In this document: positions 6,293-30,091 of the stretch, one piece after another
How the letters are laid out: the number at the start of each line of letters is the position of its first letter
Position numbering within the stretch: the stretch's first letter is position 1
Assembly: GCF_030851345.1 (NCBI RefSeq)
Contig: NZ_JALPNU010000001.1
Location: 62,001 to 126,000, forward strand
DNA: 64,000 bases
Direction: 5' to 3'
Source of the DNA: Marinifilum sp. D714
GTDB lineage: Bacteria > Bacteroidota > Bacteroidia > Bacteroidales > Marinifilaceae
The notes under the pieces: model-generated
The model's database searches: none
What the model saw: the letters and a program-made list of their open reading frames with translations, nothing else
Told to the model about the DNA's origin: nothing
Made by a program: the position numbers and the translations under genes

Positions 6293-6328
6293 ATTGGTTG
6301 TATAGTGTTAACTTTTCTTAAAATATAC

Positions 6329-8770
6329 CTATTTTTTCTCTATCATTTGTTCAAATGGGAAAATTAATTTCATTTCTGTGTACTGATTTTTCTTACTACG
6401 AACTTTAATTTCTCCATTCATTTTCTGCACAATATTCTTACTAACATACAAACTCAAGCCTGAATTCGTGTTTTCTTGTTTTGTAGAATAGAAAGGCTCA
6501 AAAATGGAATTCAAATTCTTTGGATCTATTCCTTCTCCAAAATCTTTAATCGACACAACTACTTCATTTTCTATAAGTTTTGTCTTTACTTGAATTTTAT
6601 CTTCCAAACTCTCATTAGAATTGCTTCTTTTCAGTTTTTCACCAATTGATTCATATGAATTATTCAAAATATCGACAATAACTTTCTGTAGTTTGTACTT
6701 GTTTCCACATATATAAAGCGAATCAGGATCAACTTTTAATTGAATATCAACACTAGAGTTTTTGTACTGTTTTTTCATTAAGTTAACAGCATCCTGAACA
6801 ACATTATTTACATTCACCGAAGCATCGCAGCTTTCGTTTTGAGATGAATTAAAAATGCTAATTTGAGACAGATAAGTTTTAATTCTATCAATATCCTTAA
6901 ATATCTGCTTACACTTCTCTTCTATGTATTTCTTATCAATTATATCTTTAGATAACCTCAGCAAAACATTGTCTATAATCATGGATATTCCAGAAAGTGG
7001 TTGATTGATTTCATTGACCACACTACTTGCCATTTTACCTAAAGATTCAAGTTCTGATTTTTGAGCTAGCAGTTGATTTTGATACTCATTAACCAATAGT
7101 TCATGATTAATTTTCTTCTGCATTTCTGTAGCATTTCGTTTAAGTTCTTTTTCATGCACCTTTAAATCTGAAATGACAGATTGATATTTATTCTCACCCA
7201 TTCCTTCTCCATTAGGTTGAGGCAATTCATTCATCAATAATCGTATTCCTCTACCGTTATATGAAAAGGCAATTAAAATTACCTTCTTCAAATTCCCACT
7301 TTTGGATTGAAGATTAATAACATCAAAAACAAAATCTCTCTTCTTTTCTCTAAAATTCAATAACTCTTCCGCTTTATCTTCAAAAGGTTTAGGAATAAAA
7401 TTAAAGAAACTTATATTTGTTATTCTTTTCAGGTCATTGCATTCCAGCATCTTGCACCCAAAATCATTGATATAAACAATCTCATTTTTTTCATTCAATT
7501 CAATAAAAGCTTTATCTTGATACTCTTCTCTATCAAAAGCAAGACTATTTTTCAGAGTTGTTTCCATTTCAACATCTTCCGTCACATCCCAAGCAACTCC
7601 TGTATAAATAAGTACATCAATTTTCGAATTATACTCAACATTTATTTCAAGATGAATATGTCTTATTTTCTGCTCCTTTGTTATAATTCTATGCTTTAGT
7701 TCAAGTTTTTGATTTTCTTTTATTCTAAGGTTTAGAACTTTATCAAAGGACAACAAATCCTCAGGGTGAAACTTCTCTTTTATACACTCTAATACATTGT
7801 CAATCTCCTTATCAGAAATTTCATAAATGCGATAAAACTCTGTCGAACCACGAAGAATATTTGTATAAGAATCCCATTCAAAACTCCCTACTCGAGCCAG
7901 CTTCTGAATCTTACGGATCATCAATTCTTTCTTTATTAATGAATCCTTCAGGAGCTTTTTATCCGAAACATCTCTACCCACAATATGATAGTACATTTCA
8001 TTAAATTCCATTTGCTTAAAAACAGTCCATTCTATCCATTTTTGTTCCAACAGATGATTTTTTATCGGCTTTTCTAGGATAATCGACTTACTCTTACCAT
8101 TCATTTGTTTAATGGCTACCGATATTTGATCGGAAAGCTCACTACTTATATCTGCAACTGAATTCACCGCAACCCCATCTAAAGCGTAGTTAAAGAAATC
8201 TGTAAAAGCCTTATTTGCAAACTCTATTTTAAGTGAATCGTTAATTTTAAGAATCAACTCACTCTGTCCTTCAATAATGGTTCTATAATTGCTTGCAAGG
8301 TTTTTAAGCCTGTTTTCAAAAAGCTCTTTATCTTTTAATGCAAGATTCAACTTTACATTTTGATCCTCCTTCTGTTTTTTATTATTATACAGATCCAAGA
8401 AGATATTCACCTTGTTTTTTAGTATTGTTGAATTGAAAGGTTTCATTATAAAATCGACACAGCCACAATCGTAACCCCTTTGTTCACTTTCTTTATCAAG
8501 ATAAAATGCGGTAATATAAATAATCGGAGTTGCAGAATTCTTTATTCCAGATCGGATTTTCTCTGCAAGAGCAAAACCATCCATTTGTGGCATTTGAATA
8601 TCAAGAAGGATTAAGGCATATTCTTTCTCCTCTATTTTTCGGATGGCATCCAATGGGGATTGAATCAACTCTAGTTTTGCGTCTAATTTTCCCAATACAG
8701 CTCCAATTAGATCCAAATTCTCCAATCTATCATCCACTACCAATACTTCTGGAGTAAAATTAAATCCCAT
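6329..8770 (-). CDS. Sensor histidine kinase-like protein with N-terminal receiver, PAS repeats and no phospho-acceptor His
   Basis: An 813-residue protein without obvious membrane segments. Residues ~8-125 are a receiver (LVVDD, LLDIQMPQMDG, MKPF). Then come several PAS-like segments (about 165-290, 290-400 and 420-530), a coiled coil, and an HisKA/HATPase core. The H-box reads ASSVVNEINQPLSG: the His normally found before EINQPL is Asn586 (codon AAT at 7015-7013). The ATP-binding boxes are present: N box ILNNSYES, G1 DFGEGID, F box IFEPFYST. The G2 box is degenerate (NSGLSLYVS). It should therefore bind ATP but not autophosphorylate at the usual site. It may act as a phosphatase, a scaffold or an allosteric partner of the downstream regulator. 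A frame error is excluded because flanking residues are canonical. Confidence 0.88.
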   Translation of the reverse strand: MGFNFTPEVLVVDDRLENLDLIGAVLGKLDAKLELIQSPLDAIRKIEEKEYALILLDIQMPQMDGFALAEKIRSGIKNSATPIIYITAFYLDKESEQRGYDCGCVDFIMKPFNSTILKNKVNIFLDLYNNKKQKEDQNVKLNLALKDKELFENRLKNLASNYRTIIEGQSELILKINDSLKIEFANKAFTDFFNYALDGVAVNSVADISSELSDQISVAIKQMNGKSKSIILEKPIKNHLLEQKWIEWTVFKQMEFNEMYYHIVGRDVSDKKLLKDSLIKKELMIRKIQKLARVGSFEWDSYTNILRGSTEFYRIYEISDKEIDNVLECIKEKFHPEDLLSFDKVLNLRIKENQKLELKHRIITKEQKIRHIHLEINVEYNSKIDVLIYTGVAWDVTEDVEMETTLKNSLAFDREEYQDKAFIELNEKNEIVYINDFGCKMLECNDLKRITNISFFNFIPKPFEDKAEELLNFREKKRDFVFDVINLQSKSGNLKKVILIAFSYNGRGIRLLMNELPQPNGEGMGENKYQSVISDLKVHEKELKRNATEMQKKINHELLVNEYQNQLLAQKSELESLGKMASSVVNEINQPLSGISMIIDNVLLRLSKDIIDKKYIEEKCKQIFKDIDRIKTYLSQISIFNSSQNESCDASVNVNNVVQDAVNLMKKQYKNSSVDIQLKVDPDSLYICGNKYKLQKVIVDILNNSYESIGEKLKRSNSNESLEDKIQVKTKLIENEVVVSIKDFGEGIDPKNLNSIFEPFYSTKQENTNSGLSLYVSKNIVQKMNGEIKVRSKKNQYTEMKLIFPFEQMIEKK

Positions 8771-8952
8771 ACGCTACTGATTAATCTTAACTAAAACCAT
8801 TTATAGAATAAAAGGGCCCTAAGTTGGGCATCTCTTTAATTATTCTATAATTCTTTGTTTAATCAAAATTAAAACGAATGAGCCTAAAAATCAATGCTAT
8901 TGTGATTAACCACGCTTAAAACTCCTTGAGAAGCACAAAAATCTTGGTCAAC

Positions 8953-8968
8953 TATCCGAAAATGGCTA
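8953..8968. promoter_or_regulatory. TATCC-N6-GGCTA dyad upstream of the sensor kinase operon
   Basis: The site TATCC GAAAAT GGCTA shares its left half and its six-base spacer exactly with the site at 4859-4874. It lies ~185 bp upstream of the kinase start at 8770, a typical distance for a bacterial enhancer-binding site. It suggests that the operon is autoregulated by its own NtrC-type protein; this is inference. Confidence 0.4.
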
Positions 8969-8989
8969 CTGAGCTTTCACACTAAAACT

Positions 8990-9844
8990 CTAAACAAGAG
9001 CACAAAGAGCCTCCTCAAATGTTAAATAATTATACTGAAACCCCTCTTTTTTCAGACGATCTGGGAGAACTGTTTGCCCATTTAACAGAACAGTAGAAGC
9101 CTCACCAAGTAATATCCTCAAAATAAATGCTGGCACATGACAAAATGCAGGTCGTTTTACTATTTTTGCCATCATTTTTGTGAAATCACCATTATTGATA
9201 CTTACCGGTGCAACCAAATTGTAAATTCCTTCAGATCTTTCATTGATTACAAAACTATATGCCTTCATCAAATCATCAATGTGGATGAATGGAAACATTT
9301 GCTTGCCCGATCCCAAACGACCTCCAATACCTAATTTGAAAAATGGCAATGATTTTTGAATAATTCCTCCTTGTTCACTTAAAACCACTCCTAGTCTAAA
9401 TATCGCTGTTCTTACATTCAGCTTTTGCATTTGCATTGCTGCCTGTTCCCATTCAATACAAACTTTACCTAAAAAATCATGAGAATATGCTTCACTTTCC
9501 TCTGAATGCCTATCCCTACTATTGTATATTCCAACAGCCGAAGTACATATAAATTGTTTGGGTTTATCTTTAAGCAAGGCAACAGCTTTGCATAGGTTTT
9601 TAGTCGTTTCTACACGACTATCACGAAGTATTCTTTTTCTACTCTTAGTCCATCTTGAAAGAATTGAAGCTCCCGAAAGATGAATAATTACGCTTGCACC
9701 GTCAAGCAATGCAGCCAATGATTTCGCATCTCCATACAATCTTTCTCTGGGAATCTTTAAAATTTCGGCTCCCAAATCAGTTTGTAAGTAATCACACAAA
9801 TGTGAACCTACCAAACCACTACTTCCTGATATTGCAATTTTCAT
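8990..9844 (-). CDS. TIGR01777-family NAD(P)-dependent epimerase (YfcH-like)
   Basis: The protein from M at 9844 is 284 residues and starts MKIAISGSSGLVGSHLCDYL, an N-terminal Rossmann dinucleotide motif (GxxGxxG). TSAVGIYN and FRLGVVLSEQGG are typical of the extended-SDR TIGR01777 group. HIDDL and a C-terminal region ending FEEAL also fit. An upstream ATG at 9877 would add 11 residues (MMCKRMKYSKQ) that are not part of the fold. The substrate is not known for the family, which is linked to cell-envelope or division roles in some bacteria. It is transcribed alone or from the same strand as the diadenylate cyclase to its right. Confidence 0.85.
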   Translation of the reverse strand: MKIAISGSSGLVGSHLCDYLQTDLGAEILKIPRERLYGDAKSLAALLDGASVIIHLSGASILSRWTKSRKRILRDSRVETTKNLCKAVALLKDKPKQFICTSAVGIYNSRDRHSEESEAYSHDFLGKVCIEWEQAAMQMQKLNVRTAIFRLGVVLSEQGGIIQKSLPFFKLGIGGRLGSGKQMFPFIHIDDLMKAYSFVINERSEGIYNLVAPVSINNGDFTKMMAKIVKRPAFCHVPAFILRILLGEASTVLLNGQTVLPDRLKKEGFQYNYLTFEEALCALV

Positions 9845-18300: not shown

Positions 18301-19860
18301 CAAACAGGAAAAATTGATGATTTGGATGAAACATCACTCAATACATTTGTTTCCATCGATCCGAAACAAGATTCACTGAGTTTTGTAACTCCACTTGCTC
18401 GATACGATGCCATGGACAATACCATTTCAGCCAAATTTGTAGAAAGTATAAACATTGCCGATGCAAAACTTTATCCGGACAGTGGTATTGTGAATATTGC
18501 GCAAGGTGGTAGAATGGAAACTTTCAGAAATGCCGAAGTAATTGCCGATACCATCAACCAATTCCACAGAATTTACGATGCTACCATTAATGTGAATGGC
18601 AAGAATTCTTATTCAGGCTCGGGAAGTTATACCTACAAAACTGCGGATAACAAGGAGCAACTGCTCACTTTCGATGTGATTGATGTTGACTCTACGGGCC
18701 AAACCATTGCCATGGGAAATATCTCGGAAGAAAAAGCATTTACCCTAAGTCCTCATTTTGATTACAAGGGGAAAGTGAAGCTGGAAGCAAGAGATTCTGC
18801 CCTGTTTTTTGATGGTCAGGCACACATACACAGCAAGTGTGGACAGATTAAAGACAATTGGTTGGATTTTAAAGCGAAAATCGATCCGAATGAGATATTG
18901 ATTCCTGTCGATCTTCATGCCATAGACGATGACAGGCTAAAACTGTACAACTCATTCTTCCTGACCAACGATTCCATTCACATCTATTCGTCATTCCTAT
19001 CGCGAAGAATTTTCTATACTGATAATGTTTTGCTTGATGCCAAGGGATACCTTACCTACAACGAAAAATTACAGGCCTACCAAATTGCAGAAAAAGACAA
19101 GCTAAGAGATCCGAATACTCAAGGCAGCATGATTTCCTTCTATCAGAACAACTGCAATATCAAAGGAGAAGGCAAAGTAGATCTAGGTGCAGAATTGGGG
19201 CAAATTACGCAAGTGGCTTCGGGTAATATCGAGCACGATTTAAGCAGCGATATCGTTACGCTAGACCTTATCTATGGAGTTGATTTCTTTATGAATGATC
19301 AGGCCATGAAAATCATGGAAAATGATTTTGCAAAAGCGAGTTTACCAATCAATAAACTCCACAAAAAGAATTACACCAAAAAGATTGCCGAAATCATGGG
19401 CAAAGCCAAAGCCGAAAAAGCAATGTTTACACGCGATGCCAATGGCTTATACAAGGAACTGCCTAAGGAATTGAAGCACACCATTTACTTCAACAACCTC
19501 GATTTTATTTGGGACAAGGAAGCCAAAGCCTACCAATCGATTGGTGATATTGGAATTGGAAACATCAACGGCAAGCAAATTAACAAGAGTGTTAAAGGCA
19601 AGGTAGAGCTCGACAAAAAGCGAAGTGGTAACAAACTTAGCATCTATCTTGAAATCGATAAATCAACCTGGTATTTCTTCCAATACCATCATGGGGTGAT
19701 GTTTGTGCGATCGTCGAATGATGAGTTCAACACCATTGTTACCGAAACCAAAGAAGACAAACGTGAGTTTAAAGATCCATTGAAAAAGAATCCTTACTCC
19801 TACATTATTACACAACGCTCTAAAAAGACGAAGTTCTTGAAGCGCATGAATTTTAAGTGA
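15388..19860 (+). CDS. Very large secreted protein of unknown function (1490 residues)
   Basis: The protein begins with a clear signal peptide (MTINFRSLLLVTAFFCSFNS, cleaved after FGQ). No membrane helix follows. The mature part is rich in beta-strand-like, Asp/Asn/Ser-rich segments. Passages such as ADSASFKILNADSTGYSF and FDAKGYLTYNEKL-like repeats give the look of a long beta-helix or OstA-like scaffold, but no catalytic motif is recognised. It ends with basic residues (KTKFLKRMNFK) and no sorting domain or C-terminal barrel signature. A location in the periplasm or on the outer membrane is inferred from the signal peptide alone. It stands alone, between two terminators. I do not recognise the family. 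Confidence 0.8.
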   Translation: MTINFRSLLLVTAFFCSFNSFGQSIKSFPHDSIQFQEEFLKFMDHPSKKKESKAFAEQFPSFWLSPNLTPVERQKIYQISDILLQKRARSFPDFYNYFQTLMLFQQQNRSAGDFTNWHSGFLQHVSNKKVKLSKSKDFLIQTQHLLNDSIVNKSYAVEWKAENAQFKYIFDDKLSIEFDKADLLCIAQRDTSTIYNTQGTYFPFEKIWKGSKGKISWERAGKDINTEYAIFDSYQVNTSKSKFAIDTVQYFNPDLSDHALNGSLIEKAIRTKNPKRALYPRFESFEHEIKIDEIYEHVNYKGGVAIHGAKFIGKGSPEHPSEIQISRNDTLFLVAQSEHFAFQNNQIAGKDTKIDILIDTCRIYHPGLLFKYFPEKKELNLFRDREGISKSPYFNNYHNLIMDVGLLIWRLDENMMHFTSIKGATKRQAHFESTNYFRMNRFMRIQGMDEQNPLVLLRKFADYIYVETFTAEEYANYIKKPVNQVRQQLFSLSFQGFVSYNMSTDEVTLQKRLDDYIRSGMGRQDYDVIQFTTQTGDKESDAIYFIGSSNLQINGVRQIAVSDSQNVVIFPKHRRIVLKKNRDFEFDGRLMAGLIDLHGEGFDFSYDNFKIDLKSIDSLQMNVVVDSLSNFGNRYTNLLGSVVENISGDLLIDDPNNKSGNKNFADYPIFNSVDSSYVYYDKPHIQDGVYKRDEFYFKVDPYTIMNINNFDRSDIELAGTFVSDSIFPTFREPLTIREDNSLGFEHITPENGFSAYGKGIFTDTVFLSNQGLRGSGTVNYLVSETKSNDFIFRPEEMHTNAESFELKKHDTKMNNPEINGKQIYVQWFPYKDEMYVKSSALPLDMYQKLATLSGTLKITPNGITGMGNMELVNAEIESDYFTYNRKNILADSASFKILNADSTGYSFETESVNANIDFVSRTGAFENTNADKKSIFPDNRYLSYINNFKWYMDEQIIDFGKEDEATLAALWQTGKIDDLDETSLNTFVSIDPKQDSLSFVTPLARYDAMDNTISAKFVESINIADAKLYPDSGIVNIAQGGRMETFRNAEVIADTINQFHRIYDATINVNGKNSYSGSGSYTYKTADNKEQLLTFDVIDVDSTGQTIAMGNISEEKAFTLSPHFDYKGKVKLEARDSALFFDGQAHIHSKCGQIKDNWLDFKAKIDPNEILIPVDLHAIDDDRLKLYNSFFLTNDSIHIYSSFLSRRIFYTDNVLLDAKGYLTYNEKLQAYQIAEKDKLRDPNTQGSMISFYQNNCNIKGEGKVDLGAELGQITQVASGNIEHDLSSDIVTLDLIYGVDFFMNDQAMKIMENDFAKASLPINKLHKKNYTKKIAEIMGKAKAEKAMFTRDANGLYKELPKELKHTIYFNNLDFIWDKEAKAYQSIGDIGIGNINGKQINKSVKGKVELDKKRSGNKLSIYLEIDKSTWYFFQYHHGVMFVRSSNDEFNTIVTETKEDKREFKDPLKKNPYSYIITQRSKKTKFLKRMNFK

Positions 19861-19902
19861 TTTAAACACGAAGGATAACAAAGGGTTTCACAAAGCAACA
19901 CA

Positions 19903-19942
19903 AATAACGCCACACTCTATTAGAATGTGGCGTTATTATTTA
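19903..19942 (+). terminator. Intrinsic terminator of the 1490-residue protein gene
   Basis: AATAACGCCACA (19903-19914) pairs perfectly with TGTGGCGTTATT (19926-19937) around an 11-nt loop, with an AT-rich tail. It lies 43 bp after the stop. Confidence 0.8.
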
Positions 19943-19961
19943 TGATATCTCCATAGCAAAA

Positions 19962-20100
19962 AGGATGTCCAAAAAGTTCAATATAATTGTCATTCTGATC
20001 CCGAAGGTTCGGGAGAAGAATCTGTCTCTTTGATAAACAGATGTTTCACTTCATTCAACACGACACTATGTTCGATTGAACTTACTTTTTGGACACCCTC
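19962..20100. mobile_element. MITE-like element, left copy (inverted relative to 29835-29974)
   Basis: The ends are imperfect terminal inverted repeats (AGGATGTCCAAAAAGT on the left, and its complement with GGGTGTCC on the right). The ~139-bp body has no coding capacity and contains the internal palindrome CCCGAAGGTTCGGG. Its reverse complement matches the copy at 29835-29974 at roughly nine positions in ten by eye. Small size, terminal inverted repeats and two dispersed copies support a non-autonomous mobile element. No target duplication is evident. Confidence 0.75.
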
Positions 20101-20136
20101 TCTATCCATTACCCCTTTTATACAGAAAACACAAAA

Positions 20137-20154
20137 GCCAGCATAAATGCTGGC
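20137..20154. repeat. REP-like palindrome (GCCAGCAT-type)
   Basis: GCCAGCATAAATGCTGGC is followed by TCTAC. It belongs to the dispersed palindrome family of this window (18-bp stem cores, usually flanked by GTA-AGAC and TCTAC). Confidence 0.65.
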
Positions 20155-20184
20155 TCTACAAAATAATATTATCTAATTCGTACA

Positions 20185-20202
20185 GACGTTGCATGCAACG
20201 TC
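20185..20202. repeat. REP-like palindrome (GACGTTGCAT-type)
   Basis: GACGTTGCATGCAACGTC, flanked by GTACA on the left and TCTACC on the right. It lies just beyond the stop of the YwbE-like gene on the minus strand and may also serve as its terminator. Confidence 0.65.
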
Positions 20203-20223
20203 TCTACCTTGATTTTTCTATGC

Positions 20224-20421
20224 CTATTTCATAATCTCCTGCACACGTCCCACTTGCCCACTTTCCAATCGCACCTTTATGCCATGTGGATGAATAGCCG
20301 AATTGGTTAGCAAATCTTTCACAATGCCTTCGGTTAGTTTTCCGCTGCGCTGATCTTCTTTTAAAACAATTTTTACCTTCAATCCAGGTTTAATGTTTTC
20401 TCTTTTATCTCCTTCGTTCAT
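20224..20421 (-). CDS. YwbE family protein (DUF2196)
   Basis: A 65-residue protein from M at 20421 (MNEGDKRENIKPGLKVKIVL). The family signatures are clear: IKPGLKVKIVLKEDQRSGKLTEGIVKDLLTN-type core followed by HPHGIKVRL and a C-terminal GQVGRVQEI. The fold is a small SH3-like barrel. Function is unknown. An ATG at 20451 would add ten residues outside the conserved region. It lies between the left MITE-like element and the CRISPR region. Confidence 0.85.
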   Translation of the reverse strand: MNEGDKRENIKPGLKVKIVLKEDQRSGKLTEGIVKDLLTNSAIHPHGIKVRLESGQVGRVQEIMK

Positions 20422-20556
20422 AATTTTGGTTTTTGATAGTCCCTTATACAAATGTAATGCGATTTTGGGAGATTATCATATTATGTTGGTAGTAATTGAT
20501 ATCTGTACAGCTGGTTTCTTTTTAAATACCACTAACACCATTAATTGATGCACAAA

Positions 20557-20589
20557 GTAAAGACGGCATTAATGCCGTCTCTACCCTAG
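20557..20589. repeat. REP-like palindrome bordering the CRISPR-Cas locus (left direct copy)
   Basis: The core GACGGCATTAATGCCGTC (20562-20579) lies in a 33-bp segment identical, in the same orientation, to 26693-26725, including the non-palindromic tail TCTACCCTAG. The pair brackets the membrane protein, cas13b and the array. Confidence 0.8.
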
Positions 20590-20800
20590 TCCTATTATTT
20601 TTGAAATGTAAATTCCAGGCTACATGTCAAGCATCTTGGAGATGCTAGACATATAATCGGAATAAAACAGATATGTCATGGATCTAGCAACAATATTTAT
20701 TTTTCAACTAAAATATGCCATCCCCTGCCTATTAAAAAATATTTTTTAGTTAACTTTCCATTTGTATTTACCAAACAGAATAATTCTTAAAACAACAAAT

Positions 20801-21454
20801 ATGGGAAGATTTACTTTGTATGATTTCTTATCATTCATTCTACCTGGCGGTACATTCATTGGAGTACTTTACTTCAGCTTAAGCATACCTCATCAAACTA
20901 TTAATCAGAAGGAAATGTTCATCATTCCCTTTTTAGTGATATCATATTTATTAGGACATCTTTTCAGCTTAATAGGACAAAAAGTAGAAAGGGAAACCTT
21001 TCACAAACATGCTTTTTGGATGGATTATTTAATATCTAATCCTGAAATGGCAAGGGAAATTAATGAGTTATCAATTCGTAAACTCAAGAACAAAAGTTTC
21101 ATTAACAAAGAAGGAGTTATTCTCCAGAAAGAATCAGGAAAAGCCTACGATAACATTTATACTTATTTAGAACTGGAAGAGAAAGATTCCAAAATAAAAA
21201 CCCTAATGGCACAATATGGATTCTTTAGGAATACATCTGGTACCTGGCTTGCTCTATTAATTATTCAAATCGTATTGTTCGCTTTAAGTTTACTAGGAAT
21301 TACAGAACTTAATAAAGCTCTGCTTTGGAACTGGACATTAATCTTATCATTTCTCACTGCACTAATTATTTCATCCAAATTGATGAAACAACGCAAAAAA
21401 ATGGCCATGCAAACTGTATATCATACTTTCTGGGTTTATATCAGTAAAGAATAG
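20801..21454 (+). CDS. Four-helix membrane protein of the type VI-B locus (Csx27-like)
   Basis: From M at 20801 (MGRFTLYDFLSFILPGGTFI) it is 217 residues. Four hydrophobic helices are visible at about 10-28, 42-60, 152-172 and 180-200, with a ~90-residue charged cytoplasmic loop between the second and third. The gene ends 51 bp before cas13b on the same strand. Type VI-B loci encode Csx27 (several membrane helices, dampens interference) or Csx28 (pore-like, enhances). The four-helix layout and upstream position favour a Csx27-like role, but no sequence motif proves it. I see no R-x4-H HEPN motif. An upstream ATG at 20762 would add 13 residues. Confidence 0.65.
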   Translation: MGRFTLYDFLSFILPGGTFIGVLYFSLSIPHQTINQKEMFIIPFLVISYLLGHLFSLIGQKVERETFHKHAFWMDYLISNPEMAREINELSIRKLKNKSFINKEGVILQKESGKAYDNIYTYLELEEKDSKIKTLMAQYGFFRNTSGTWLALLIIQIVLFALSLLGITELNKALLWNWTLILSFLTALIISSKLMKQRKKMAMQTVYHTFWVYISKE

Positions 21455-21505
21455 CAAGCAATAAAATAAATAACTCAAAACGAAATCCTATAATACTTTA
21501 ATAAC

Positions 21506-24500
21506 ATGAAAAGAACATTCAACCATAAAAGAAGACCTTTTAAGAGGGATATTAATATTGATGATTTGTTCACAGGAGCAAAAACACCTGAATATGCCGT
21601 ATTCTATAATATTGCTTACTGGTGGATTAGTGATTTTTTAAAGTCATTATATGCTCCTTATATGAAAAATGCTCAATCCGAAAACCAGAGCGATGATTAT
21701 TCAAAATACATAAACAAGTTCATAACGGAAGAAGCTACCTCCACCCTTTCGGATGCAGACTATTTAAAGCTCCGAGATTACCTTTGGAAAGGATACCTTT
21801 TTGCCAAAAACTCTACAAATATTAATGTAAGCGAGAAAGACAAAAGAATGACACACCAGATGATTCAAAAGTTATCTGACATTCGTAATTTCCATTCTCA
21901 CTACTGGCACGAAAACTCTAATTTAGAATGTGAGAAAGAGTTCTGCAATTGGATAGACTATTTACACGATTATGCTTTGGACCAATTACAAAAAGAATAC
22001 CCTAAGGAAGTGGACAAGTATAAAGAGAAACGTAAATCTAATTCTTTATTTGATCACCACGATGGAAAACATTTTATCTCGCAAGATGGTAGAAACTTCT
22101 TTTTAAGTTTCTTTTTAAAACGAGGCGAAATTTCACGTTTCATGCAACAGCGTACTGGCTGCAAAAGAAATGACAAACCTGAATTTAAGCTAAAGCATTT
22201 GCTTTACAGGTACTACACACATCGCGATGGTGCAAGCAAAAATCGTTACAGCATCGAGAATACTGCCTTCTCTCAATTGAATTCGGAATCGCAAACAGAA
22301 ATTGTTCACGCTCGCCAGCTTTATAAAATGATTTCATATTTGCGCGATATACCCGTTGAAATGATTGACACCAAACTATTCCCTCTCTTTTGGAATGGCG
22401 AAGAAGTAAAAAATTCGGAACAAATTATAGAATTCATATATCATCATGAATTGCTAAGCTTTTGTGAATTTGGAACATTGAGCAATAAAGATGGTAATAT
22501 CATTCAAAACACTGTTGCGTTTAATTATACAGGCAGCAATTACCAATTCGAAATTAGAGTAAGTGCCCTGCACAAACTCCTATTAGATGTAATTCGCAAT
22601 CCAAAACGCGAAACAGAATTTTATAATACCCTAAAAACATTCTCACAATTCAGAGATGAATTTCCTGAAAAGCTCGACCAGTTTATAAACGGATTGGTAC
22701 AAGAAGACGAAATGCAGGAGTATTATACCTTTAAACTAAAGGCCCCTGACAAAACAAGAGGTAAACTATGGCAAATCATTGATAAAGTAAGCAATAACAA
22801 GAGTGTTGGATATAAGGACAAGAGCGAATTGTTGCAGTTGATTAAGGATGATGCCATCGAACTTATCTATCACAACTTCTATTTCGAAAAAGACCAAAAA
22901 CCAAGAAGGGAAAGCCAATTCATGCAGTTTGCTGTAAATTACTTGATAGACCATAAAGTGGTACCTGAATGGGAATGGTTGATGGAAAAGTTCGAAACCG
23001 AAGAAGTAAGATCCGGTGAAAATGATAAAACACAAATAAAAAGAGTAAAATCGTACAGCAATTGCATTCCTGAAGGCTATCGTTTAAGTCTAAGCGATAA
23101 TCAAGTGTTGGTGAGATTAAAAAATGAACCCAATCGCTTATTTGGAATTGGAGAAACTACCATGCGCAATTTAATTTTTGCTCATATACACGATAAGCCT
23201 ATTGAGAATATTCTGGGACGAATAATTACAGACATCAACCAAATTCAAGCCGCAGGACAAAAACAAATTGAGCTTCCTTATGAGAGTTTAAAATTGTTGT
23301 GCAACAAAACCATGCCAAGGTATTTAAGACTAATGATGCGCGATAAGGAGGTTTTAGATATGGAAAATATGACTTATGCTACACAAAAAGCATGTGAAAG
23401 AATTGAAAGCTTGGTAACTTATTTTGAAAGTATTGCAAATGGTGATGTCAGGTTAAACAAAAAGGAAATCAATACCCAGCTGATTCGTTGCTACAAATAT
23501 TTCGACTGGAAATATCCACACAACAACGAATATAAGTTTCTGCGACAAAACGAATATCAGCTCATGAGTATCTACCACTACACATTGGCTAAACCAAATT
23601 TAAGAGTTTCCTATTTAAATGGTTTAAGGCGAAAATTGTTTACCGATATTCGTACACATTTGCCAAACGACTTGAATACAATGCTTGAAGACAACACTTC
23701 TTTAGATGGCCTACTTCATGATGTTTTAAAAGCCACAATAGGCAAACTTAAAAAGTGGCGCGATGATTTTTCAAGCATGAACCCAGATGTGAAGAAAGTT
23801 TGCCTGAATAAACTTGGAATTAAAACCCCAATGACTCCAGTTCCTGAAGCCAATATTGCATACAACCTGGAACAAATGCAACACTTGCCGTTATTGGTGC
23901 ATCCTGCTTTGGTTATGAAAGCATTTAACTTTCCTCAGGTATCGCACCTGTTCTCCGATTTTAGAGAAGATGCCAATAACAGCAAAGGACTGATAGAAGA
24001 GAATTACCAATTCGAAAACTACCTCAGCTCTTTGTATACCGATGCAGAAAAACAAGAAATTAAACAATGGAAAGCCTGCCAGCATAAAATTGTAGGCAAG
24101 GTAAACCAATTGAAAACTTTAGATACATTGGTTTGGAAAATGGCTCAGGTCTATTTGAAGAATTCTGGTTCGGGTATTATGAAAGAAATTGCCGAACTCT
24201 TGATCAACAAGACTGATGACACCTTCCAACTGAACCAGCTACACAATACTACAATTCCCGTGTACGAAGGAAAAACCAATGAAGGCAAAGCTTACCGCGT
24301 GAATGTAAAATTCAAACAATTGGGCGATTTTATGCTGATAACAGGCAAACCTTTGGAGAAATTGGCTGGCCAAATCTTCCGACGTTACCAAAGCAAGGAA
24401 CAATTAACAGCAATAGGCATTGAAGAAAAAGAAGGACACTATCAAATCGATTACTCCTTACTAAAACAGGAAATGGACAGGGTTTACTATGAATCTTTAA

Positions 24501-24844
24501 TGTGTACCGATTTTATTTTACAATGGGAGAAAAAAGTGGTGGATGCCATGCCATATGGGCTTAAAGGAGGTTTGAGAATAGAATGCAAGAACAAAGACAA
24601 AAAGGCATATTTGAAATTCAGGAAGGTTTGCAAAGCTGCAGAATTACCAGAAGCCGATGAAAATGAATTGTGCATGCTACGCAATCATGCCATGCACGCC
24701 AAAATACCAGAAAACTTTAGCTACCACGAAAAATTAAATGATGATAGAATTAAAAATATGCTACAAATAACAGATGAAATGCTCGAAAAATATCAGAAAA
24801 AAGATGCCTATTACGAGGCTTTGGCCTCTGAGGCAATTTCTTAG
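21506..24844 (+). CDS. cas13b: CRISPR-associated RNA-guided RNase Cas13b (type VI-B effector)
   Basis: The 1112-residue protein carries two HEPN R-x4-H catalytic motifs at opposite ends: R127-H132 (IRNFHSHYWH) and R1059-H1064 (LRNHAMHAKI). Terminal placement of both, the length, and a CRISPR array directly behind the gene identify Cas13b rather than Cas13a, c or d. It should process its own crRNAs and cleave RNA matched by a spacer, with collateral RNase activity. Both catalytic pairs are intact. The gene is co-directional with the array, and its stop is only 9 bp from the first repeat. No cas1 or cas2 is in the window. Confidence 0.96.
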   Translation: MKRTFNHKRRPFKRDINIDDLFTGAKTPEYAVFYNIAYWWISDFLKSLYAPYMKNAQSENQSDDYSKYINKFITEEATSTLSDADYLKLRDYLWKGYLFAKNSTNINVSEKDKRMTHQMIQKLSDIRNFHSHYWHENSNLECEKEFCNWIDYLHDYALDQLQKEYPKEVDKYKEKRKSNSLFDHHDGKHFISQDGRNFFLSFFLKRGEISRFMQQRTGCKRNDKPEFKLKHLLYRYYTHRDGASKNRYSIENTAFSQLNSESQTEIVHARQLYKMISYLRDIPVEMIDTKLFPLFWNGEEVKNSEQIIEFIYHHELLSFCEFGTLSNKDGNIIQNTVAFNYTGSNYQFEIRVSALHKLLLDVIRNPKRETEFYNTLKTFSQFRDEFPEKLDQFINGLVQEDEMQEYYTFKLKAPDKTRGKLWQIIDKVSNNKSVGYKDKSELLQLIKDDAIELIYHNFYFEKDQKPRRESQFMQFAVNYLIDHKVVPEWEWLMEKFETEEVRSGENDKTQIKRVKSYSNCIPEGYRLSLSDNQVLVRLKNEPNRLFGIGETTMRNLIFAHIHDKPIENILGRIITDINQIQAAGQKQIELPYESLKLLCNKTMPRYLRLMMRDKEVLDMENMTYATQKACERIESLVTYFESIANGDVRLNKKEINTQLIRCYKYFDWKYPHNNEYKFLRQNEYQLMSIYHYTLAKPNLRVSYLNGLRRKLFTDIRTHLPNDLNTMLEDNTSLDGLLHDVLKATIGKLKKWRDDFSSMNPDVKKVCLNKLGIKTPMTPVPEANIAYNLEQMQHLPLLVHPALVMKAFNFPQVSHLFSDFREDANNSKGLIEENYQFENYLSSLYTDAEKQEIKQWKACQHKIVGKVNQLKTLDTLVWKMAQVYLKNSGSGIMKEIAELLINKTDDTFQLNQLHNTTIPVYEGKTNEGKAYRVNVKFKQLGDFMLITGKPLEKLAGQIFRRYQSKEQLTAIGIEEKEGHYQIDYSLLKQEMDRVYYESLMCTDFILQWEKKVVDAMPYGLKGGLRIECKNKDKKAYLKFRKVCKAAELPEADENELCMLRNHAMHAKIPENFSYHEKLNDDRIKNMLQITDEMLEKYQKKDAYYEALASEAIS

Positions 24845-24853
24845 AAAAGCTAT

Positions 24854-26675
24854 GGTGTGATAGGTTTCTTTTTGAAAACTATTAACACCCATTTGAGCTT
24901 CTATATTTCGAGATCCATCGGTGTGATAGGTTTCTTTTTGAAAACTATTAACACCTATACTACCATGATCAATAGAATAAGTACTGGTGTGATAGGTTTC
25001 TTTTTGAAAACTATTAACACCAGCCTTCCATTCGTCGGATATCGTTTGGCGGGTGTGATAGGTTTCTTTTTGAAAACTATTAACACCAAAGAACTTTAAG
25101 TTTTTGCCAGTAATTAGGGTGTGATAGGTTTCTTTTTGAGAGCAATTAACACCAAGAGCTTCAAAAGTTAATTCAGCATCAAAGGTGTGATAGGTTTCTT
25201 TTTGAGAGCAATTAACACCAGGGTAGTAGTCATTAGTATCTTAAATGGTATGATAGGCTTCTTTTTGAAAGCTATTAACACCAGGATAAAACTCATAAAT
25301 GCCTTTGCCGTGGGTGTGATAGGTTTCTTTTGAAGACTAGAAACACCTCAATAATGTTGCATATATTACCAAGCGTTGTTGTAAAAGGTCTCTTTTTGAA
25401 GACTAGAAACACCTGGATCGAATGCGCCTTAAATACAGCCCGTGGTGTAGTAAGTTTCTTTTTGGAGCTAAAAACGCCTTAGTTTGTTTCAAGTAATAAG
25501 GTAATCGTCGGTGTAATAGGTCACTTTTTGAGAACTAAAAACACCGTCATGACATTTGTTGTGTTTGTTTATTTTGGTGTGGTAGGCTTCTTTTTGAAAG
25601 CTAGAAACACCTTTGTTTTCTTTCAAATAATTTATTAATACGGTGTGATATCTTTCTTTTTGAAAACTATTAACACCAGTTGACATGTTGTGGTCTTCAA
25701 ATTCAGTGGTGTGATATGTTTCTTTTTGAGAACTAAAAACACCGTCATGACATTTGTTGTGTTTGTTTATTTTGGTGTGGTAGGCTTCTTTTTGAGAACT
25801 ATTAACACCAATAGCAAGAGAGTGACGGGTACCTACGTAGGTGTGATAGGTTTCTTTTTGAGAGCTATTAACACCATTGTCTTGCTTAGATGATGGGGAG
25901 AAGGGTGTGATATGCTTCTTTTTGAAAGCTAATAACACCTTATAAATACCATGATTGTAAATTCTGAAGTCCTTGGTGTGGTAGGCTTCTTTTTGAAAGC
26001 TATTAACACCTGATGTTGAACACTTCCTTCATTCTGTCACGGTGTGATAGGTTTCTTTTTGAGAACTATTAACACCTTCAATGGTTTTTGGGAACTCATC
26101 GAAAATGGTGTGATATGTTTCTTATTGAGAGCAATTAACACCTTACTTGTGTTAGTTTTAGGAGTACTTTGAGGTGTGGTAGGCTTCTTTTTGAAGACTA
26201 GAAACACCGCGTGTCATTTGGAAACAATAACGTATTAGGTGTAGTATGCTTCTTTTTTAAAAGCTAATAACACCTTATTAATACCATGATTGTAAATTCT
26301 GAAGTCCTTGGTGTGGTAGGCTTCTTTTTGAGAGCTAAAAACGCCTTAGTTTGTTTCAAGTAATAAGGTAATCGTCGGTGTAATAGGTCACTTTTTGAGA
26401 ACTATTAACACCTGATTTGTGTCATTATTTAAGATCTTTTAAGGTGTGATATGTTTCTTTTTGAAGACTAGAAACACCTGTTGTTCTGTCAATCGCTAAA
26501 ACTAAATCGGTGTAGCAGGTTTCTTTTTGAGAGCTATTAACACCGCGCTTGTGGTGCATTCATATCCAAAACTTGGTGTAGTACGCTTCTTTTTGAAAGC
26601 TATTAACACCATTGTCCCGCCTATGAATACTGGCTGAAAGGTGTAGTAAGTTTCTTTTTGAGAACTAGACACATC
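24854..26675 (+). CRISPR. Type VI-B CRISPR array, 28 repeats and 27 spacers
   Basis: Repeats are 36 nt (three variants of 35, 35 and 37), starting GGTGTGATAG and ending AACACC in the intact form. Spacers are mostly 30 nt (range 27-35). Repeats 1-4 (24854, 24920, 24986, 25052) are identical. Later ones diverge, and the last (26640-26675) has a broken 3' end. The orientation follows the known Cas13b repeats (GTTGT...ACAAC type), so crRNAs read from the + strand, with the repeat 3' of the spacer. Three spacers occur twice (25546/25744, 25479/26346, and 25940/26275 with one mismatch). Short reading frames through the array are products of the 66-bp period. Confidence 0.97.
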
Positions 26676-26692
26676 ATTTATAGGTGGAAAAC

Positions 26693-26725
26693 GTAAAGAC
26701 GGCATTAATGCCGTCTCTACCCTAG
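26693..26725. repeat. REP-like palindrome bordering the CRISPR-Cas locus (right direct copy)
   Basis: Identical over 33 bp to 20557-20589, with core GACGGCATTAATGCCGTC at 26698-26715 and the same tail. It begins 18 bp after the last CRISPR repeat. Confidence 0.8.
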
Positions 26726-26783
26726 CACTTCTATTATTAAACCCTAAATCTAAGGCAATGCGATGCATCTATCCAAAACCAAA

Positions 26784-27119
26784 CAAGCAACACCACTATA
26801 AAACAGGCAAACATGCCATTTCAAATTGAAATGATGCCTGTTGAAAAAGGAAACTTGCCTACCGAAGCAGCAATATTCCCTCTTTTTATAAGGAATATGG
26901 AGTAAAAAGAGGGAAGCTTGCCTATGAAATAGGGATTAATGCGTATGAAAAAGGCAAGTTTCCTTCTTGCGAAAGGACCTTTGCCTGCCAGGGAAGCATG
27001 TTTCCAAAAATAACTAGCACCATTGCTTCTTTTAATAGCATCGTTCCTTCTTCCTAAAGGAATCTTCCCTCTCAAACAAGGAAATTTCCCTCTCTGAATA
27101 GGAAAATTATCTGTTCAAT
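26784..27119. repeat. Degenerate 21-bp tandem array, about 16 units
   Basis: The segment divides into 21-bp units without a single length change from 26784 (or 26805, where agreement becomes clear) to 27119. The loose consensus is AAGGAAATTTCCCT followed by seven variable bases rich in A. No two units are identical. The core GGAA..TTCC is locally self-complementary. Reading frames through it have no conserved protein character. It ends 110 bp from the stop of the small helical-protein gene, separated by that gene's terminator. Confidence 0.8.
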
Positions 27120-27166
27120 TGACATAGGCTCCAGAGCAAGAATAAGACCTCATTATTAACGAATAA

Positions 27167-27190
27167 ACCCGAACCATAAGGTCCGGGTTA
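27167..27190 (-). terminator. Intrinsic terminator of the 157-residue protein gene
   Basis: AACCCGAACC and GGTCCGGGTT form a 10-bp stem (one mismatch) with a 4-nt loop ATAA, about 40 bp past the stop codon at 27229. Confidence 0.65.
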
Positions 27191-27228
27191 GTAAAGTTGC
27201 GGTAATCGAAAAGGGTAATTAAATCTAT

Positions 27229-27702
27229 TTATTCTGCTGTTTCGACATTCGTTTTCTTTTTACCAGGAAAACGACTTCCCAAATCAGCAGCAGCTTCGCT
27301 TGCTCCGGATTGTCCCATTACCGAAGCATTTTTAAGCACTTTATAAATAGAAAGAGAGGAACTAAACGCCTCACTACCTGCCAATGTTATAGTAGAATCA
27401 ACTCCATTGGTAATTCTTTCCAGGGGCAGGAACAATTGGCGCAATTGTCTTACACTTTGCAAATCAATTTTAGCCTCGTTAACATCAATAAAATTTGGAA
27501 TGTAATTGGGATACTGTTCTGCATACTCCAATGATTTTTCAACAAAGGCTACTGTTTTATCTCCCATTTTCGGCAACTCCTTTTTATCAGCAGCCGATAA
27601 ATGGGTTAGTTTAGGTTCTAAAACTGAAGTCAACACATTTAATGCATCCATTATTTGTGTGCTTTCTTCTTCGCTTAATACGAATGAAACTTTGTTTTCC
27701 AT
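27229..27702 (-). CDS. Small helical protein of unknown function
   Basis: The 157-residue protein has no signal peptide or membrane helix. It appears mostly alpha-helical, like a four-helix bundle: an N-terminal Glu-rich helix (LSEEESTQIMDALNVLTSVL), a segment with YPNYIPNFIDVNEAK, two further helices, and a C-terminal helix (SLSIYKVLKNASVMG) ending in a basic tail (FPGKKK). Comparable short proteins recur in Bacteroidota, but I do not recognise a named family. It lies beside a 21-bp tandem array; a second helical protein at 59752 also sits beside such an array. Confidence 0.7.
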   Translation of the reverse strand: MENKVSFVLSEEESTQIMDALNVLTSVLEPKLTHLSAADKKELPKMGDKTVAFVEKSLEYAEQYPNYIPNFIDVNEAKIDLQSVRQLRQLFLPLERITNGVDSTITLAGSEAFSSSLSIYKVLKNASVMGQSGASEAAADLGSRFPGKKKTNVETAE

Positions 27703-28006
27703 TTTTGTGTGTTTTTGGATTAGTTAAGTTACAATAATCGATTACCACTATTAAATTTACAAAACATAAACTCAAAAATCCCAATTGTTATTATGTATTT
27801 CACCGCTTTTAACATTAATTAACAGTTGGTTTTATATCGATTAGTTTAAGAAACACAACAAACACATACACAAACCCATATTTTAAAAAGCTGGAAATTA
27901 CAAATCAATTCCACCCTCTAAAATCGCCTGTGTTTTACGTTCAATTCATTTGCATTTATCTCCAATAAAACTATCTTTATAAGACCACATAAAAAACGTA
28001 ACATAT
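27703..28006. other. Intergenic stretch without recognisable elements
   Basis: This ~300-bp AT-rich gap separates a minus-strand gene from a plus-strand operon, so it should contain two divergent promoters. I see no repeat, RNA gene or strong hairpin in it. Confidence 0.5.
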
Positions 28007-28249
28007 ATGAGCAATACAGAAAATACATTGATGGAAGTATACACAGGACTTTCATGGGAAGTTGAAATGCTAAAGACAATTTTGGAAGATCATAAAATCA
28101 ATAGCTTTATTAAAGATGGTTATACAGGAATAATTGCTCCTCACCACTCCGGAGGTACTGCTGGTGCAGTAAAACTTTGCATATCGAGCGGCGATTTAGA
28201 AAACGCTAAACCCATTATCGAGGAGTTTCTGGAAAACAAAACAGAATAA
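28007..28249 (+). CDS. DUF2007 domain protein (putative signal-transducing protein)
   Basis: The 80-residue protein reads EVYTGLSWEVEMLKTILEDH near the start and later AVKLCISSGDLENAKPIIEE. This is the DUF2007 pattern: a ferredoxin-like fold that occurs in small cytoplasmic proteins, sometimes near transporters or proteases. First gene of a three-gene group; the next start is 4 bp after its stop. Confidence 0.8.
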   Translation: MSNTENTLMEVYTGLSWEVEMLKTILEDHKINSFIKDGYTGIIAPHHSGGTAGAVKLCISSGDLENAKPIIEEFLENKTE

Positions 28250-28252
28250 ACA

Positions 28253-28705
28253 ATGAATTCTGTAATGACAAAAATTTACGGACAGCGAATCCTGGATGGT
28301 GATTTGCTGTTCGATCATGAAAAAATCACTTTTCATACCAATCCAAAGGCAGCATTACTAAGTGCGATTGCAATGAGCTTGGTTACAGTAAGTAGTGCTT
28401 TCAACATTTATGATACTACTGGTGAATCGAGCATTAGTATCGCTTCGATTATAATTGGACTTATAGCAATTGTACTCGGAATATTTTCAGTGATTAAATA
28501 TCTAGCAGCACGAAAAATTAACCTCATCGAGTTTGCACCACAAGATATTGAAGAAGTTGCCATCAAAGAAATGGCAAACTCTTTACGTATCAGCATACAT
28601 TTGAACAACAATACCACCCACAAAATTGGCTGTGCGAAAGATCGCTATTCAGGCAAGTTGGTTCAGACTTTAAAGGATGCTGATGTAAATTTAACCTACT
28701 TATAA
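28253..28705 (+). CDS. Small membrane protein, paralogue 1
   Basis: The 150-residue protein has a short N-terminal strand region (YGQRILDGDLLFDHEKITF), two membrane helices (about 33-50 and 62-85), and a C-terminal ~65-residue cytoplasmic part with beta strands (RISIHLNNNTTHKIG). The layout resembles a membrane-anchored PH-like domain, which is inference. It shares plan and short matches (GxLLFDxxKIxF) with the next gene, so the two arose by tandem duplication. Start 28253 gives MNSVM; M at 28265 is an alternative. Confidence 0.7.
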   Translation: MNSVMTKIYGQRILDGDLLFDHEKITFHTNPKAALLSAIAMSLVTVSSAFNIYDTTGESSISIASIIIGLIAIVLGIFSVIKYLAARKINLIEFAPQDIEEVAIKEMANSLRISIHLNNNTTHKIGCAKDRYSGKLVQTLKDADVNLTYL

Positions 28706-28720
28706 TAGGATTATCAACTC

Positions 28721-29182
28721 ATGAAAAACACACTAATCACTACATTAAAAGGTAGACCAATCCTAAAAGGAGAATTACTGTTTGACGATCACAAAATCAG
28801 TTTTAGAAATGATCCCGGTTTAATTGGTATGATTATAATGGGATTTAGTTTTCTATCCTTTTCTAGTGCCTATAGCCTATATTCTCATTACCATAGCACC
28901 GATCTATTCGATCAGTTTATTTATCCATTCAACTTTTCTTTATGCGTGTGCATTGTATCCTATTTGATCATCAAATACCGCAAAGCCAAAAGAATGCACG
29001 ACAAAGAATTCAAGCCTGAGGACATCAAAACGGTTTACATTGCCAAGACAAAACGCAATACCAAAATCAGATTTGTTCTGAATGATGATTTTGAACAATA
29101 CTTCAAATTTAAAAGCGATGGTAAATGTGATAAGTTGATCTCCTTTTTGAAAGAATCAGAAGTAGAAATAATCAATGCTTAA
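28721..29182 (+). CDS. Small membrane protein, paralogue 2
   Basis: The 153-residue protein has the same layout as its upstream neighbour: N-terminal LKGRPILKGELLFDDHKISF, two membrane helices (about 33-55 and 70-90), then a basic, beta-rich C-terminal region (TKIRFVLNDDFEQYFKF). The gap to the upstream gene is 15 bp. I do not recognise a characterised family. Together with the DUF2007 gene it forms an operon. Confidence 0.7.
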   Translation: MKNTLITTLKGRPILKGELLFDDHKISFRNDPGLIGMIIMGFSFLSFSSAYSLYSHYHSTDLFDQFIYPFNFSLCVCIVSYLIIKYRKAKRMHDKEFKPEDIKTVYIAKTKRNTKIRFVLNDDFEQYFKFKSDGKCDKLISFLKESEVEIINA

Positions 29183-29188
29183 AAAGAA

Positions 29189-29802
29189 ATGTCTGCCAAA
29201 TTCCAAAACAAATTCAGAATCGATTCTACCCGATTGCAAAATTGGGATTATGGCAGCAATGGCAAATATTTTATTACGATTTGCACCTGCGAAAATGAGC
29301 ATTTCTTCGGAAAGTTGCTAATGAAAATATGTTCCTGAATGAATTAGGAGAATTGGCTGATAGCTATTGGCGAGAAATCCCTAATCATTTTCCATATGTG
29401 CATTTGGATGAATTCATTGTGATGCCCAATCATATTCATGGCATTTTGGTGATTGATGATCCTTATAATGTCGGCAAAAGAAAGGATAATCGAGACAGCA
29501 TAAATGCTGTCTGTACGGATAATGATCAATTAAACACTGAAAAGAATTCTAAATGTATTGGTAGAGACGGCATTCATGCCGTCTGTAAAAGTGAAAATCC
29601 AATGAAATCAGATAATATATCAAAAATGGTTCGTTGGTATAAAGGTCGCATTACATTTGAAGCCCACAAAATCAATCCAAAATTTGAATGGCATTCCCGA
29701 TTTTACGATCATATCATTAGAGATCAAAAAGTATTGCAGCGCATTCGCAGTTACATCAAATACAATCCAAAGAACTGGAAAGAAGATAAATATTTCGAAT
29801 AA
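29189..29802 (+). pseudogene. REP-associated (RAYT-like) tyrosine transposase, frameshifted
   Basis: The reading frame starts at 29189 (MSAKFQNKFRIDSTRLQNWD, then YFITICTCENEHFFGK) and stops at about 29338. The remainder continues in another frame from the FFGK region (NENMFLNELGELADSYWREI...). The HUH-type motif MPNHIHGILVI and a C-terminal SRFYDHIIRD with RIRSYIKYNPKNW confirm a Y1-type transposase of the IS200/RAYT class. One lost base near 29310 explains the shift. Two REP-like palindromes lie inside the coding region in frame, at 29494-29511 and 29566-29583, giving RDSINAVC and RDGIHAVC. The gene is probably inactive. Confidence 0.85.
29494..29583. repeat. Two REP-like palindromes within the transposase coding region
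   Basis: GACAGCATAAATGCTGTC (29494-29511) and GACGGCATTCATGCCGTC (29566-29583) are separated by 54 bp and have the same tail type (TGTAC / TGTAA) as the intergenic copies. They code for similar peptides in the transposase frame. Confidence 0.75.
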
Positions 29803-29834
29803 TATTAAAAATGTCGATAGATGTGTTATTGTAT

Positions 29835-29974
29835 GAGGATGTCCAAAAAGTAAGTTCAATCGAATATAATGTCATGTTGAATGAAGTGAAACATCTGTTT
29901 ATCAAAGGGACAGATTCTTCTCCCGAACCTTCGGGATCAGAATGACAATAATATTAAACTTTTTGGACATCCTC
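29835..29974. mobile_element. MITE-like element, right copy
   Basis: The ends are inverted repeats (GAGGATGTCCAAAAAGT and its complement ACTTTTTGGACATCCTC). The body is the reverse complement of 19962-20100 with scattered substitutions, and contains CCCGAACCTTCGGG. It carries no gene. Confidence 0.8.
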
Positions 29975-30091
29975 CCAAGAAATTCCGATAATACCAAAAA
30001 TCCCCATATCCTTCACCCATTCGTAACACAAAGAACCAAAAAATTGACTATTTTTAATGACATAGATTTTCACAATTAGCAATATCAATAC

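Follow-up and report, generated by a model that had tools for sequence, protein, structure and literature searches.

What kind of type VI CRISPR system does Marinifilum sp. D714 encode, and which of its parts sets it apart? The question arose from a stretch of 64,000 nt of this bacterium (GCF_030851345.1, contig NZ_JALPNU010000001.1, positions 62,001-126,000 of the forward strand; hereafter the window), in which genes for a small membrane protein and a Cas13b-like effector precede a CRISPR array. The original prediction described a type VI-B locus, and that architecture was borne out, with the order csx27-cas13b-array, two HEPN motifs and 36-nt repeats all found; the coordinates, lengths, R-x4-H motifs (R127-H132 and R1059-H1064) and co-directional array were likewise correct on rechecking. 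We class the locus as a deep variant of VI-B1 whose architecture is ordinary but whose effector is not; within the genomes searched it was confined to one genus. On the sequence comparisons presented below we consider it probable that this is a functional RNA-targeting CRISPR system derived from VI-B1, located at one chromosomal site in Marinifilum-like bacteria and equipped with a very divergent effector.

Compared genomes carry G-numbers as labels, G000 being the window's own genome (4.77 Mb in 105 contigs). The same system is present in a congener, G004, a metagenome-assembled genome (MAG; 80% complete) whose contig C110 is letter-identical to a public contig of Marinifilum sp. MAG McD1.5. 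The csx27 and cas13b proteins of the two are 76.5% and 78.8% identical, with dN/dS of 0.075 and 0.096, respectively (rough values, dS being >1), and both genes appear to be kept under purifying selection.

The resemblance to canonical VI-B1 loci is extensive. All four of those seen to bear Csx27 (G286, G025, G015 and G1148) have the order csx27-cas13b-array. Like the window, they combine a Csx27 partner with repeats of 36 nt, spaced mostly 66 nt apart, an array soon 3' of cas13b, and two R-x4-H motifs near the effector ends. In contrast, the window repeat ends in GGTG...CACC where the canonical repeat has GTTG...CAAC, its Csx27 has 217 residues against 235-241, and its effector scores far lower against the Cas13b model, as detailed below. 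The features of the locus are as follows (window coordinates).

20504-20539, + strand: solitary degenerate CRISPR repeat 5' of csx27, aligned with the other repeats (11/36 mismatches to the leader-end repeat)
20561-20580, no strand: REP-like palindrome 1, within a 33-nt identical direct repeat
20801-21454, + strand: csx27, 217 aa, ATG at 20801, four transmembrane segments (profile matches, hydrophobicity)
21506-24844, + strand: divergent cas13b, 1112 aa (profile comparison, motifs)
21884-21901, + strand: N-terminal HEPN motif RNFHSH, residues 127-132, inside the sole stretch clearly homologous to canonical Cas13b
24680-24697, + strand: C-terminal HEPN motif RNHAMH, residues 1059-1064, conserved in G004
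24797-24853, + strand: putative leader overlapping the cas13b 3' end (suggested by the identical repeats here and the longest identical-codon run, which ends here)
24854-26675, + strand: CRISPR array of 28 repeats and 27 spacers (24 distinct), co-directional with cas13b
26697-26716, no strand: REP-like palindrome 2, just 3' of the last repeat, within the same 33-nt direct repeat

The membrane partner

By its profile matches the partner is a divergent Csx27. The matches to the Csx27 models of PADLOC (E 7.5e-20) and NCBIfam (NF040557; 63.4 bits, just under the cut-off of 65) both cover residues 1-213, hhalign against four canonical Csx27 proteins aligned residues 81-206 (E 9e-12), and a profile of the partner matched 5 of 56 genomes of the bacterial family (G000, G004, G025, G015 and G1148), with cas13b adjoining in all five. 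The G004 protein scored 51.3 bits with NF040557, and in the phylum sample the Csx27 model matched 3 of 395 genomes, one of them partially (22 bits). Four hydrophobic segments (residues 9-27, 40-58, 150-168 and 173-191) and the lack of any R-x4-H in the whole 217-residue sequence agree with the predicted Csx27-like topology without a HEPN motif. No match to Csx28 was obtained from PADLOC or NCBIfam, libraries that include a Csx28 model, which distinguishes the locus from VI-B2 (Csx28 and Cas13b), with which it has in common the N-terminal HEPN homology of Cas13b.

Nor did the partner prove to belong to an unrelated membrane family that occurs without Cas13b. The remaining PADLOC matches were to tm_4 (labelled VI-B associated) and, in two weak cases, to PDC-M48A (27.5 and 15.3 bits; residue 116 onward); Pfam gave nothing above cut-off (best E 0.17), and a search of PDB sequences gave three matches, none better than E 0.12 and none to a Cas protein. 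A structure predicted from the two-row alignment was too poor for use (pLDDT 51). The suggestion that the partner may be a divergent regulator stands in that the protein is a divergent Csx27, but its emphasis is misplaced: since Csx27 models match over residues 1-213, the partner is not what is unusual here; Cas13b is.

Within the membrane Csx27 would tune Cas13b, and the role of a brake, of the kind reported for VI-B1, is the most likely, although the sources disagree on brake versus booster. An excerpt of PMC8209922 states that Csx27 represses Cas13b, while in an excerpt of PMC12669027 both Csx27 and Csx28 augment it and Csx28 forms a pore. It is quite conceivable, if short of an even chance, that Csx27 acts rather as a membrane effector and strengthens immunity, as the Csx28 pore does; the maintenance of csx27 at its low dN/dS would fit this, the stated repression speaks against it, and the sequence decides neither.

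The divergent effector

The case against a derivation from VI-B1 begins with the effector itself. With the NCBIfam Cas13b model (NF038190) it scored 48.6 bits against a cut-off of 150, and the G004 effector 48.1, whereas canonical Cas13b proteins reached 789 (G286) and 819 (G262), and those of genus g12 from the same bacterial family 850 (G1148) and 852 (G015). Its best stretch in this model comprises residues 30-240, and a second stretch passes E 1. Residues 240-850 showed no homology to Cas13b by profile comparison, and signals from the C-terminal part were weak: E 0.019 by profile comparison with five canonical Cas13b proteins, and for the C-terminal HEPN at best E 2.8e-4, with a protein of G294.

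The N-terminal region, on the other hand, is recognizably that of Cas13b. Profile comparison aligned residues 27-222 with three Cas13b-like proteins (E 1.8e-6) and residues 117-238 with five canonical ones (E 5e-6); pairwise blastp against two canonical Cas13b proteins was convincing N-terminally only (E 0.003 and 5e-7). The extent of the divergence is apparent from a like test, in which the outlying canonical protein of G262, as a single sequence, aligned with the four others over 923 columns (E 1e-20); five shuffled controls gave E 0.17 or worse. There is a third R-x4-H at residue 351 (RVSALH) that is not present in the sister species. The effector had no match among PDB sequences, none to Cas13a, Cas13c or Cas13d up to E 1 in PADLOC or NCBIfam (libraries that include such models), and its structure as predicted from the two-row alignment was too poor for use (pLDDT 34).

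The effector is also narrowly distributed. When 84,980 species genomes were scanned for close relatives, one was returned, the Marinifilum MAG, and a search of 57 relatives returned G000 and G004 only. An effector profile found its own genome alone among 393 genomes of the order and, among 395 of the class, the effector itself and a weak 67-residue match with two stops in G863, which we dropped as chance. These genome samples overlap. The single-protein search of relatives did not pick up G015 or G025 either, which both carry canonical Cas13b. Plasmid records and IMG/VR likewise gave no sequence match, and a literature search for Marinifilum together with Cas13 found no paper. For comparison, NF038190 matched 5 of 395 genomes in the phylum sample, 2 of them above cut-off.

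Two other assignments of the effector were weighed. It might belong to the metagenomic clades Cas13f to Cas13i, and so be new to the genus and not to science, a possibility that we hold tentatively. Its size of about 1100 aa, the 36/30 array and the 3' repeat agree with an excerpt of PMC9554183, according to which the new subtypes other than Cas13g are without conserved adaptation genes; the excerpt makes no mention of Csx27. The comparison is with that description, the libraries searched containing no Cas13e-i sequences. Alternatively, and in our view improbably, the effector represents a Cas13 lineage of its own. Its N-terminal HEPN region would be Cas13b-like but joined to a crRNA-handling body without recognizable sequence relation to known Cas13b, and it would work with a VI-B1 Csx27 and VI-B1-like repeats. 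In a forced global alignment it was 16.5-19.4% identical to canonical Cas13b, compared with 21.2-31.5% among the canonical lineages, but the lower bound of the latter, between G262 and G286, is not far above the effector's own values and speaks against a separate lineage. Were it one, csx27 and the array would have been conserved around an effector that was exchanged or rebuilt, in a single genus.

We also observed a further very divergent Cas13-like protein, that of G294 (C3:588000-602000; 6161-9538, minus strand), with the motifs RCYCTH and RNAAFH. Its gene lies directly 5' of a CRISPR array with repeats of about 36 nt, and the protein had no NCBIfam or PADLOC match up to E 0.01, scoring 27 bits with the Cas13b model in the genome search.

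The array and the supply of spacers

The array consists of repeats of about 36 nt and spacers mostly of 30 nt. Its repeat is identical at 23 of 36 positions to the canonical VI-B1 repeat of genus g12, a likeness equalled in 0 of 20000 shuffles, and the leader-end repeat has a predicted stem of -12.5 kcal/mol. Repeats 1-4, at the cas13b end, are identical, and the remaining 24 of 28 depart from them. Given that these identical repeats begin 9 nt past the cas13b stop codon, the leader probably overlaps the 3' end of the gene, where the final 9 conserved codons are identical in both species, the longest such run in cas13b (P about 0.017 for its position if codons are independent). Short gaps also occur outside the window, with 28 nt in G286 and 76 nt in G015 and G1148. 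Rfam searched at the gathering threshold returned nothing in 19000-30000. A leader-repeat hairpin of the type that an excerpt of PMC13187072 describes for VI-B was tried and is unsupported, being equalled by 34/200 and 156/200 shuffled leaders, and so counts against our interpretation.

From their spacing, csx27, cas13b and the array would be read from one promoter 5' of csx27. In VI-B systems Cas13b cuts the array transcript into spacer-repeat crRNAs, and pairing of crRNA with target switches on a two-HEPN site that then cuts RNA broadly. The Marinifilum Cas13b would process its transcript in the same manner, and pairing of a crRNA with phage mRNA would turn on the two-HEPN site, leading to broad RNA cutting and stopping the infected cell.

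The spacers have so far furnished no target, and their results belong with the points that count against a functional RNA-targeting system. The best matches in phages and in plasmids were both at E 0.5, and no convincing match was found outside CRISPR arrays in 57 relatives (at most 5 candidates scored per genome). Exact 20-mer cores of 7 spacers (6 of the 24 in the window, 1 of G004) were sought in IMG/VR, 6 without a match; the seventh matched at four places, extended to only 22/30 and was judged chance. No strand bias toward mRNA targeting emerged among 38 spacers, whether from a stop-codon test (P 0.69) or a codon model (22/38; P 0.07, binomial P 0.21, not significant). As no protospacer was found, no common PAM could be read for G000.

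How the array has changed is partly legible. CRISPR arrays are known to recombine, and degenerate repeats make this visible here. Three spacers are present twice (one pair with a single base difference), and in all three the half-repeats that adjoin the spacer are retained, with 1, 0 and 0 differences against 5, 8 and 5 in the outer halves; three random pairs among spacers 7-27 would match as well with P about 1e-5. The pattern supports recombination inside repeats, of which it is the expected mark, and older spacers would have been reshuffled in this way. New spacers would enter at the cas13b end, as the identical repeats there suggest. Two arrays of G004 with the same repeat were compared over 5 and 7 spacers and had none in common, from which we infer that acquisition or exchange has occurred.

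Where new spacers would come from is a separate matter. The prediction of no adaptation genes holds for the window, which contains no cas1 (cas2 was given no profile search of its own there), and fails for the genome, in which a Cas1 profile found two, both on other contigs. One is a type II cas1, 95% identical to that of G004, which matches the type II Cas1 model; identity among G000, G004 and G002 is 93-95%. Beside it lie a frame of 1407 codons akin to the Cas9 of G004 (about 25-35% identical in matched pieces) and a frame that reads as cas2-like. The other encodes a 761-aa reverse transcriptase (RT)-Cas1 fusion (G000:C61:235090-255087) matching Cas1_IIIb and RT models, around which we read a cas2-like frame, a short array and Cmr-type III genes, the cas2 and Cmr names being given by reading and not by profile. 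This fusion is a possible source of RNA-derived spacers. In G004, an 80% complete MAG, the type II cas1 was the only one found; on its contig C116 the type II cas9 is apparently split by a transposase frame, and the cas1 matches its model nearly full length.

The most likely source would be the type II Cas1-Cas2 acting in trans, by analogy with Flavobacterium columnare, whose VI-B system gains spacers via II-C Cas1 according to an excerpt of PMC8092290. Both organisms have a VI-B locus lacking cas1 and a type II adaptation module elsewhere in the genome, and unlike F. columnare G000 also has the RT-Cas1. Weighing on the other side, no cas1 was found in the canonical VI-B1 genomes G025, G015 and G1148 of the same family, all with a listed completeness of 100% and one of them a single contig; trans-acquisition is therefore not a general rule. 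That finding, together with the half-repeat-spacer-half-repeat duplication in 3 of 3 repeated spacers, lends some credit to the view that no Cas1-Cas2 supplies the array any more and that it changes by recombination and loss only. We regard this view with doubt, the unshared spacers of the two G004 arrays speaking against it, as does a similarity by eye, only suggestive, between the type II and VI-B leader-repeat junctions.

Probable loss and persistence at one site

The whole system is flanked by the two REP-like palindromes, whose 33-nt identical direct repeats lie 6136 nt apart, where shuffles expect 0. Three congeners (G001, G002 and G003) have neither the effector nor the locus at the corresponding site. 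G001 keeps the upstream flank as far as the REP palindrome, with a single degenerate repeat near-identical to that at 20504-20539, and continues with the downstream flank, a scar consistent with deletion through recombination of one REP copy with the other. Judged by a neighbouring protein, G004 is the farthest removed of the five genomes (85% vs 93-95%); the genes downstream of its C140 array are those found downstream in the window, the upstream side lying beyond the contig. Loss in three congeners is thus the simplest reading, with independent gain as the alternative. A regulatory, crRNA-like role for the solitary repeat was considered, but given its REP neighbour and the empty site a remnant or duplication is more likely.

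Other observations concern the same site. G003 has a 3.9-kb insert there (C16, 8710-12430, minus strand) that encodes an nSTAND3 NTPase along with two frames unmatched in Pfam, and the VI-B site may be a variable defence site. In G004 the same two short dispersed elements surround the VI-B pieces on C110 and C140, and two versions of the array are present. At 29329-29802 of the window is a frame resembling Y1/REP-associated transposases (17.5 bits with Pfam Y1_Tnp, under its cut-off) and containing REP palindromes, among them the one that flanks the CRISPR system.

That the locus is a decaying relic, its array without spacer uptake and its effector function lost, would accord with the 24 departing repeats, the three duplicated spacers and the absence from 3 of 5 genomes of the genus, but is very unlikely in view of the strong purifying selection on both genes, the two intact HEPN motifs and the four identical repeats at the cas13b end, which suggest fairly recent insertions.

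That a functional-looking Cas13 falls under a curated cut-off points to type VI systems going unnoticed in genomes, and to Csx27 together with an array as potentially the better handle for finding them. The array provides evidence of spacers moving as half-repeat-spacer-half-repeat units, and the congeners, one retaining a lone CRISPR repeat, provide an instance in which the possible loss of an entire CRISPR system can be read. Finally, a Csx27-Cas13 pair so distant from those studied is well suited to testing what in the partnership is essential.

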